64,000 nt of DNA from Verrucomicrobiota bacterium (GTDB lineage Bacteria; Verrucomicrobiota; Verrucomicrobiia; Palsa-1439): positions 1 to 64,000 of the forward strand of contig PLZV01000022.1 in the NCBI GenBank assembly GCA_003152315.1, read 5' to 3'. Of the stretch, positions 4,884-58,348 are shown in pieces (positions within the stretch are counted from its first letter, which is position 1; each line of letters begins with the position of its first letter). The notes under the pieces were generated by a model, which was not told where the DNA came from, searched no databases, and saw only the letters and a program-made list of their open reading frames with translations. The position numbers and the translations under genes are program-made.

Positions 4884-5652
4884 CGGGCGGTTTCTTCCCG
4901 AGTCAGAAGCCACCGTATCCATCTTCGACCGCGGTTTTCTCTATGGGGATGGAGTCTTCGAGACCATGCGTGTGTATGGCGGCCGCATCTTCCGTGCGCT
5001 CGATCATTTTGACCGACTCTCCGCCGGACTGGAGGCATTGAAGATTCAGTCCCCGTTGACTCAAGAAGAATTGCGGGCTGCCTGTCGCGTCCTCATTGAG
5101 AGAAATGAAGTTGCGGAAGGTGTGGCAAGAGTTTACATCACCCGCGACTCGATCGTAGTGACCGTACGCCCCTACGCGATGCAACCAGTCGAACTACGGG
5201 CGATGATTTCCACAGTTCGGATTGATCCGCGATTGTCCAGGTACAAGACCGCGAATCGTCTCCCGTATCTGCTCGCACAACAGGAGGCAGTGGAGGCGAA
5301 TGTAAACGACGCGGTGCTGCTTAATACGGCCGGCCGCGTCGTCGAGTTTACTACCAGTAATCTATTTGTGGTGAAGGACGATGAATTGTTGACCCCACCG
5401 TTGTCCGACGGACCGTTGCCGGGCGTTACACGCCGAGTGGTGCTGGGATTGGCTGCGGAAAAGCGGATAGCCGTGCGCGAGCACAGTTTTGGGCAGGAAT
5501 TTCTTGAGAAGGTCGACGAGGTCTTCGCGACGAACAGCCTGATGGAAATCAGTTCCGTCGTGACGTGGAGCCGCTGGCCGAAAATAACCTTACGATTGCA
5601 GGACGCCTACCGGGTCTTGGTGGCGAATGAACTTAGTAAGCCCGGGCCATGA
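4855..5652 (+). CDS. pabC: Aminotransferase class IV, probable 4-amino-4-deoxychorismate lyase
   Basis: This 265-residue fold-type IV PLP enzyme has its Schiff-base lysine at K131 in [14 protein letters not shown], and the [10 protein letters not shown] strand and [11 protein letters not shown] cofactor-phosphate region of the family. Family members include branched-chain aminotransferases, D-amino-acid aminotransferases and ADC lyase (PabC), which releases pyruvate from aminodeoxychorismate to give p-aminobenzoate. The choice of PabC rests on the 29-bp overlap with pabB. The 3' end overlaps convergent proS by 20 bp. Confidence 0.82.
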
Positions 5653-22943: not shown

Positions 22944-23117
22944 CATCGAATGCGCACGAAGGCAAGAAGGAAGATGCGTAACTGTGGGAAGTTGGTGGGG
23001 AATGGTGAGTGCGTGACGAACGCAGAAAGGCAGGGGGATAGCTGGCAACCCTGAGGGGAACGCGAACTCCTTGCAGGAAACGCGACAAACGTCGATGTAT
23101 CGGTACGCGATAAATGT

Positions 23118-23405
23118 GCTGGACACGGTGTAATGGGCTAGGTATAGTCGGGACAGTTCTTTGACAAGGGATCACTCTTCGCGAGTCGCTGCGGCGCGAC
23201 AAGTTGGCGCGAACCTGCTTCGTAAGGACGCTACCAAGACCAAGAAAAGGGCACCTATACGTTTCTGCGAAACGAACCCATTTCGTTTTCTCATAGTTGT
23301 TGATGGATCACTTTTCTTCGCAGAGACTTACACGGTTTGCAGCGACGTTTGCAAATGGGTTCGTTCTCCGAAAACGAACCCATTTTGGGAGGTATTTAGG
23401 GGGCA
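23118..23405 (+). ncRNA. Promoter plus boxA-like plus hairpin element, copy A
   Basis: The element is laid out in order. TGGACA (23120-23125), 17 nt and TATAGT (23143-23148) make a near-consensus promoter. GTTCTTTGACA (23156-23166), similar to rRNA-type boxA, starts about where transcription should begin. GTTTCTGCGAAACGAACCCA is at 23261-23280. A perfect 13-bp hairpin has arms AAATGGGTTCGTT (23353-23365) and AACGAACCCATTT (23373-23385). AGGGGGCA is at 23398-23405. A second copy with the same order is at 39434-39839. No convincing ORF and no T-tract terminator are present. It points toward the 3' end of glgA. Whether it is transcribed is inferred from the promoter only. Confidence 0.5.
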
Positions 23406-39400: not shown

Positions 39401-39433
39401 GTGAATTGCCCGCATATCGTAAAGCGATTATTT

Positions 39434-39839
39434 CACTGGACAGCGTGATGTGAGAGGGGTATAGTCGAGGCGGTTCTTTGACAGCCTACTTCGCGAGGAC
39501 GCTTCCTCCGTCGCTAAAGCTATGGAGGACGTGACGAAGGCCAAGTAAGGGAAAGAAGGAAAGCGGGAAGCGCAGAGCGGAAAGGTTGAAAGCGAAAGGA
39601 CGAATCCGCCTTCACTAAAGCTTCGGCGCGATACTTGGGGCGGAGCTATGCGGGGAAAAAGTCTCTTGTGTAAAATCGAGGGTTCACAAAACATGGTTTC
39701 TGCGAAACGAACCCACCGTTTTGTGAGCGCTGTTTTGATGTAAGCACCTATGAATAGAAGTGTTGCGGCGGAATGTTACGGAAAAAATCGGTGGGTTCGT
39801 TTTGGAAAACGAACCCACCGGAGGCCACAAGAGGGGGCA
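39434..39839 (+). ncRNA. Promoter plus boxA-like plus hairpin element, copy B
   Basis: The order is the same as in copy A. TGGACA (39437-39442), 17 nt and TATAGT (39460-39465) form the promoter. GTTCTTTGACA is at 39473-39483, again 7 nt after the -10. GTTTCTGCGAAACGAACCCA is at 39696-39715. A perfect 13-bp hairpin has arms CGGTGGGTTCGTT (39789-39801) and AACGAACCCACCG (39808-39820). AGGGGGCA is at 39832-39839. It is about 118 nt longer than copy A because two CTAAAG-loop hairpins lie in the middle. No convincing ORF is inside. The AsmA-like gene starts 245 nt downstream on the same strand. Confidence 0.5.
39503..39628 (+). repeat. Two CTAAAG-centred hairpins inside element B
   Basis: TCCTCCGTCGCTAAAGC followed by TATGGAGGA (39504-39529) folds as TCCTCC/GGAGGA plus GC/GC around TAAA. 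CGCCTTCACTAAAGCTTC followed by GGCG (39607-39628) is a second, weaker version. Both share the (C)CTAAAGCT core and are absent from element A, so they look like a separate insertion family. Confidence 0.45.
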
Positions 39840-57778: not shown

Positions 57779-58348
57779 TCAGAAGTCGTCGGGGACTGTA
57801 AGTTGGTCGCTTTTGAAGGTGTAGACCATTTTCACTGTCGCTGGCGGGCATGTGCGCTCGAACCATGCGGCGGAGCACCACCGGTATTGATTTGCCACCG
57901 GCGCGAGTTGATGGTGTACGGGATTCTGATGGACATAGTTGAGCCGCGCAAGGTAGGAGCGTTCAAATGTCAGGCGAGTATCCCAAAAGTTGTGCCATAC
58001 CTTACGGACGGGCTCGTTGTTCAGCTTGTTTATCTTGCGTGCAGTATCGGCATGAAGATGCGTGATGAATTCTCGTAATGACTCAGCATTCGCCGGCGAT
58101 CTTCCGACGAAGTGGTAATGATTGCTGAATACCGCCCACGCTTCCAGTTGCCAGCCGTATTGTTTGGCCAAGCGCAAGAGTGTTGATTCGAGAACGTCGA
58201 GCGCGTCATCGCCTCGAAAGAAGTGGTCCTTGTGATACGTTCCGGCCGTGACCATGTAGACGCCTGCTTCGGACAGCCGGTGAACAGGTGCATGCGGCCA
58301 ATCTTTGGAGCGCGGCGACCTGTTGCCGTTTTCTTGTTCCTCATCCAT
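57779..58348 (-). CDS. REP-associated tyrosine transposase (RAYT, Y1_Tnp)
   Basis: This 189-residue IS200/IS605-like single-strand transposase has the HUH pair H77-x-H79 in NHYHFVGRSP and a catalytic tyrosine Y138 in LNYVHQNPVHH. RAYTs are single-copy, non-IS transposases thought to spread REP palindromes. Four REP copies surround it: 1 and 2 beyond its 3' end, 4 just upstream, and 3 inside the first codons. ATG 58348 is preferred; the longer frame would use a TTG that is itself the head of REP 4. Residues 7-15 (NGNRSPRSK) are the translation of REP 3. Confidence 0.87.
   Translation of the reverse strand: MDEEQENGNRSPRSKDWPHAPVHRLSEAGVYMVTAGTYHKDHFFRGDDALDVLESTLLRLAKQYGWQLEAWAVFSNHYHFVGRSPANAESLREFITHLHADTARKINKLNNEPVRKVWHNFWDTRLTFERSYLARLNYVHQNPVHHQLAPVANQYRWCSAAWFERTCPPATVKMVYTFKSDQLTVPDDF
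58304..58330 (+). repeat. REP palindrome 3, inside the RAYT coding start
   Basis: CGGCGAC (58313-58319), loop CT, and GTTGCCG (58322-58328) form a 7-bp stem with one G-T pair, preceded by TTTGGAGCG. It is read in frame by the RAYT gene. Confidence 0.7.

Follow-up and report, generated by a model that had tools for sequence, protein, structure and literature searches.

Two segments of the 64,000-nucleotide stretch of DNA analysed here (the window) share a promoter-like sequence, a boxA-like tag and a hairpin, and the question raised by this locus is what kind of element they represent and how widely it occurs. The initial annotation had described a two-copy element, and every feature it described was recovered. 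Both segments contain TGGACA-N17-TATAGT, GTTCTTTGACA follows the -10 box with its start at 7 nt in each, and the identical 20-mer GTTTCTGCGAAACGAACCCA was located at 23261 and 39696. Element 1 has 13 pairs, and element 2 has 14, in the hairpin formed by the parts here called arm 2 and arm 3, and AGGGGGCA follows this hairpin after 12 nt and 11 nt (position 39832 in element 2), respectively. The count of 36 of 50 positions in two aligned 50-bp blocks also held, but the second block starts at 39435 rather than 39434. The palindrome ATCG-N5-CGAT before each -35 box and the copies elsewhere in the genome had been overlooked, as had arm 1, which lies upstream of arm 2 and pairs with it across ~70 nt. 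Each element holds one of the only two palindrome sites that the window contains, and the only two sites of GTTCTTTGA(C/A)A are both inside the elements. No tRNA was found in the window. The features of both elements are given in Table 1.

Table 1. Positions of the features of elements 1 and 2 in the window.
Feature	Position	Strand	Remarks
Element 1 palindrome ATCG-N5-CGAT	23099–23111	+	Upstream of -35 box; candidate operator
Element 1 class I promoter TGGACA-N17-TATAGT	23120–23148	+	
Element 1 GTTCTTTGACA, boxA-like	23156–23166	+	7 nt past -10 box; equals rRNA operon spacer boxA of G196
Element 1 variable leader	23167–23249	+	~83% identity to orthologous leader in G196
Element 1 type A cassette left flank (..CCTATAC)	23250–23260	+	
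Element 1 hairpin cassette, ATTT arm type	23261–23366	+	Model R1, 75.2 bits
Element 1 cassette parts	arm 1 23270–23283; arm 2 23353–23366	+	Interior lies between the arms
Element 1 third arm	23371–23385	+	Alternative partner of arm 2, in place of arm 1
Element 1 AGGGGGCA	23398–23405	+	Variant of the G-rich tail found with type A cassettes
Element 2 palindrome ATCG-N5-CGAT	39416–39428	+	Upstream of -35 box; candidate operator
Element 2 class I promoter TGGACA-N17-TATAGT	39437–39465	+	
Element 2 GTTCTTTGACA, boxA-like	39473–39483	+	7 nt past -10 box
Element 2 variable leader	39484–39695	+	Includes outer-helix left strand CTTGTG (39665–39670) and ACATG flank (type B)
Element 2 hairpin cassette, ACCG arm type	39696–39802	+	Arm 1 39705–39718, arm 2 39789–39802; model R1, 83.7 bits
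Element 2 third arm	39807–39820	+	Alternative partner of arm 2, in place of arm 1
Element 2 CACAAG	39826–39831	+	Outer-helix right strand; common to six copies from two species

The host genome of the window (G000; 4.9 Mb in 62 contigs) was found to contain 156 matches to an 18-mer core with up to two mismatches (1 for the reversed-pattern control) and 111 matches to a pattern requiring both paired arms (0 for the control). The element is thus present in more than 100 copies rather than two, and the absence of further copies, which the initial annotation had named as grounds for abandoning its proposal, was not observed. The covariance model search that it had recommended for the genome and its relatives was performed with a model of the cassette (R1), and recovered further copies in G000 (at least 68) and in two genomes of the same genus, G196 (at least 68) and G195 (60), the genomes analysed being incomplete metagenome assemblies, with G000 and G196 each ~95% complete. 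No match to the R1 model was found in 54 other genomes, eight of them from the same family, and a pattern search of viral contigs revealed no family copies. Nearly all units are intergenic, and no same-strand runs of units were seen along the chromosome. The family therefore has the high copy number, intergenic location and confinement to one species group of a BOX-type repeat. The G196 16S rRNA includes the EUB338-III and VER47 probe sites, a mark of Verrucomicrobia.

Further afield, a related inverted repeat is present in an Acidobacteriaceae MAG. A true cassette copy adjoining runs of N (L071) was detected in a Hyphomicrobiales MAG (contig PMAF01000280.1; coordinates 5450–5605), and this contig, assigned to another phylum, is probably a misjoined or misbinned scaffold. 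Genome G210, from another family of the class, carries direct repeats of the form (G)CAAAACGAA(C/G)CCAAAT, ~100 nt apart (L093, L105, L114 and L118), which are possibly distant relatives of the cassette arms.

The Rfam 15 covariance models gave no match at gathering or relaxed thresholds, which is in keeping with the suggestion of the initial annotation that the family is a candidate undescribed one and speaks against a riboswitch or known ncRNA. No paper describing the element was found in the literature, and a family of more than 100 dispersed units with exchangeable 3' cassettes has apparently not been described before. On the reading that we favour, with a probability of roughly 0.55, these would be genus-specific, high-copy, intergenic non-coding transcription units of the BOX/Correia kind, parasitic or regulatory, each with its own promoter module of ribosomal type.

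Association of the promoter with the cassette was assessed in 66 cassettes fetched by the hairpin alone, excluding twenty loci fetched by the promoter. TGGACA-N17-TATAGT (up to two mismatches) was found in the same orientation within 700 nt upstream of 53 of these, compared with 0 upstream in antisense, 2 downstream in sense and 0 downstream in antisense. The promoter block lies ~70–600 nt upstream of the inverted-arm cassette, with order and orientation fixed. The full set comprises 84 cassettes, some of which were fetched by promoter. Of the promoters, 46 have ATCG-N5-CGAT before the -35 box (class I), 25 have the palindrome inside the spacer (class II) and 4 were not assigned. Matches to the class II pattern number 42 in G000 and 23 in G196, and 37 other genomes, G195 included, have none. 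Family promoters with no cassette within 560 nt were seen at L073 and L078, the former pointing to an open reading frame. Several leaders (L074, L080, L083 and others) are mosaics of further short palindromic repeats, such as TCCGCC..GGCGGA blocks, which look frequent between genes and are seemingly separate repeat families nested in the units.

The resemblance of the tag to boxA, proposed in the initial annotation, was borne out in that GTTCTTTGACA exactly matches the boxA found in G196 between the 16S and 23S rRNA genes, where the rRNA operon carries GTTCTTTGAAAATTG ~200 nt before the 16S rRNA gene and GTTCTTTGACAATTG in the spacer, and in that its register is fixed. A boxA-like sequence (at least 8 of 11 positions of GTTCTTTGACA, no more than 25 nt from the -10 box) was carried by 31 of 75 units (41%), compared with 1.4% of shuffles, and when promoter-baited loci were left out, 23 of 62 carried one, 7 of them exact. 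In G195, boxA likewise follows the promoter in copies L192 and L112. The boxA of the lineage thus occurs in the expected transcribed leader of ~40% of units, as at rRNA operons, and because the remainder carry no such match it is a frequent module rather than a defining or universal feature. Its weakness or absence in about half of the units counts against the favoured reading. Taken together, the sequences establish a conserved predicted promoter accompanied by the palindrome, a boxA that many units carry at a constant distance, where the RNA would be expected to begin, and a leader that changes freely.

The 3' cassette is ~105 nt long, and its predicted arms keep their pairing while their sequence changes. 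Between arms 1 and 2 there are 14 pairs; 97.4% of the cells are paired, 89 changes affect both sides, and the covariation score was 0.323, compared with 0.094 for shuffles (0 of 500) and at most 0.073 when the arms were slid. One-sided (G-U) intermediates are nearly absent, a scarcity that fits palindromes acting at the DNA level as well as it fits RNA. The interior contains a few near-invariant positions and revealed no supported helix and no covariation beyond that predicted by base composition; a fixed RNA fold within the arms is thus unsupported, and a conserved one was rejected. A protein-coding cassette is likewise unsupported, as lengths are mostly 104, 105 or 106 nt and the reading frame is therefore not kept. 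Signals resembling intrinsic terminators were found in 15 of 84 cassettes, a minority that rules out such a terminator as the general identity of the cassette.

A third arm, which often competes for arm 2, is present in 51 of the 84 cassettes. It accompanies the type A left flank (C-rich..TATAC) in 34 of 34 cases and the type B flank (ACATG) in 15 of 47, and flank, arms and third arm thus travel together. AGGGGGCA is just one variant of a G-rich tail that is loosely defined. Where paralogues are similar, the block they share begins at about -10/-15 and ends at about +125/+190 relative to the cassette; the most similar pair among those listed is 92% identical over 116 bp, and no near-identical recent copies were seen. 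A short form of the cassette, which retains TTCTGCGAAACGAA and has CCCCC..GTTAGG..GGGGG-like arms over ~60 nt, was observed in G000 (L005, L027 and L041) and G196 (L167, L177 and L211), L211 being preceded by a boxA-bearing class II promoter.

Comparison with the other genomes of the genus separates the history of the loci from that of the cassettes. Element 1 adjoins glgA, and a unit occupies the same place in G196 and G195. The leader of the G196 orthologue is ~83% identical and its hairpin is of another type, and the G195 site holds a different cassette with the arms ACGAAGCCA/TGGCTTCGT; in the G195 copies read with this arm type both sides of the arms have changed. The site of element 2 is empty in both relatives, with 22 bp between the flanking genes in G196 and ~70 bp in G195, compared with 1.4 kb here, and element 2 thus appears to be a newly gained locus. 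At 19 loci shared by G000 and G196, which were drawn from the loci at hand and are not a random sample, 14 of the 15 pairs that could be scored have the same promoter class, and at ~13 of the 19 the stem interiors are as dissimilar as those of paralogues drawn at random (95% quantile 0.73). At the L161/L033 locus both the interior and arm 3 were kept, and arms 1 and 2 had changed in concert. The comparison indicates that loci and promoter classes are inherited vertically, and that leader and cassette are replaced from a pool. The description of the element as mobile or repeated, transcribed and provided with its own promoter was correct as to repetition and the presence of a promoter, and its mobility is what we infer from this comparison.

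Under the favoured reading of BOX/Correia-like transcription units, RNA polymerase would start at boxA, and in copies that carry boxA, NusB/S10 may load on the RNA and shield the untranslated transcript from Rho. The 3' hairpin would stabilise or end the RNA. Cassettes could spread between copies by recombination or gene conversion, with the shared flanks and arms supplying the homology. Weighing against this reading are the lack of covariation in the cassette interior, the scarcity of one-sided changes in the arms, the small number of terminator-like signals and the failure to find near-identical recent copies.

Several known systems are comparable in part. BOX elements of Streptococcus pneumoniae are high-copy, interspersed and strongly structured repeats of one species group, some of which are expressed, and are seen as parasitic (PMC3049150). 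The present family resembles them in copy number, interspersed location, strong secondary structure and restriction to one species group, features for which no relationship of sequence is claimed, but its units have their own promoter and palindrome, often with a ribosomal boxA, and exchange of the 3' cassette leaves the promoter where it is. Correia elements of Neisseria, of which there are also more than 100, are small and bear inverted repeats and sigma-70-like promoters, which have been shown to lie on the element (reviewed in PMC10969869), whereas here the sigma-70-type promoter is upstream of the cassette in fixed order and orientation and no transposase could be linked to the units in the search for Y1 genes. 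As in boxA antitermination of rRNA operons (PMC5725501) and the boxA of CRISPR leaders (Stringer et al. 2020, as cited in PMC7862264), GTTCTTTGACA directly follows a promoter on an apparently untranslated RNA and matches the rRNA spacer boxA of the genus; however, the present units are short and dispersed, lack rRNA, tRNA or a CRISPR array, and carry the tag in only ~40% of cases. REP/BIME elements, which are associated with RAYT (Y1) transposases (PMC2817692, PMC3733652), are likewise dispersed intergenic palindromes, and Y1 genes are present in the genome, but the units described here are much longer and oriented with respect to a promoter.

A regulon of small RNAs serving the host would explain part of the evidence. 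One DNA-binding regulator would act at ATCG-N5-CGAT and activate about a hundred related sRNAs, the variable parts of which pair with different targets. The palindrome has equal spacing in class I, before the -35 box, and in class II, within the spacer, and the locus positions and promoter classes kept between species are also as expected of such a regulon. However, leaders and cassettes have been replaced at most shared loci, so that few loci retain a specific RNA sequence, and no conserved seed was seen except the arms and a few single positions. A host-serving regulon is rather unlikely.

A true MITE, that is a short inverted-repeat cassette moved in trans by a transposase preferring the ends of these transcription units, is similarly doubtful. 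The ~105-bp units have terminal inverted repeats in the form of the 14-pair arms, similarity blocks end at the cassette, and cassettes are replaced at fixed sites. G000 has 11 matches to the Y1 transposase domain, and several Y1 genes are within 2 kb of a unit. (The window contains a match to a Y1-type, IS200-like transposase domain at 57974–58234, far from both elements.) Against a MITE, most copies face the same way and sit at the same place with respect to the promoter, and the single empty site available, that of element 2, differs by the 1.4-kb block with no evident target duplication. Y1 counts also disagree with copy numbers, as G196 has one Y1 gene and at least 68 copies whereas no copies accompany the nine Y1 matches of G197, and in the seven genomes compared copy number was not tied to the RAYT gene as it would be for REP elements. 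A RAYT was therefore rejected as the mover despite the Y1 genes near units, and Y1 transposases are a weak lead.

A bolder proposal, which we hold to be distinctly improbable, is that about a hundred fixed promoter sites, sharing one regulator and ribosomal antitermination, would serve as docking points for hairpin RNA cassettes moved by a dedicated exchange machinery that is neither integron, retron nor CRISPR.

It is very unlikely that the units act in cis on the adjacent gene as leaders or attenuators that alternate between arm1:arm2 and arm2:arm3 pairing. The third arm does give a bistable fold, arm1:arm2 being preferred in 27 and arm2:arm3 in 23 of the 51 cassettes that have it, and the downstream gene is more often co-directional (47) than opposed (27). 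But a third of the downstream genes, including glgA at element 1, are convergent, and this mixed orientation of the neighbours speaks against a cis-regulatory leader; the distance to the next gene varies from 24 to more than 600 nt, and at the G195 site of element 1 the arm recurs a third time as a direct rather than an inverted repeat, which is incapable of an arm2:arm3 hairpin.

An integron-, retron- or CRISPR-like system, though a fixed promoter with replaceable, oriented cassettes follows the logic of an integron or CRISPR leader, can be dismissed almost entirely, as integron integrase scores were at best 92 bits or lower (cut-off 265) in G000, G195 and G196 while relatives without the family have an integrase, no reverse transcriptase domain that would indicate a retron or group II intron was found in G000 or G196, no repeat-spacer arrays were seen, and the cassette end, G(G/C)TTCGTTT, does not match the attC R' box GTTRRRY.

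If transcribed, the family would represent a highly abundant unit of non-coding transcription in uncultured Verrucomicrobia, in which the ribosomal boxA would have been put to use on dispersed short RNAs. The combination of a promoter that is kept and a hairpin that is swapped amounts to a natural experiment in the spread of small repeats in bacteria and in which of their parts is under selection, and the set of promoters with ATCG-N5-CGAT is a ready starting point from which to look for a regulator.
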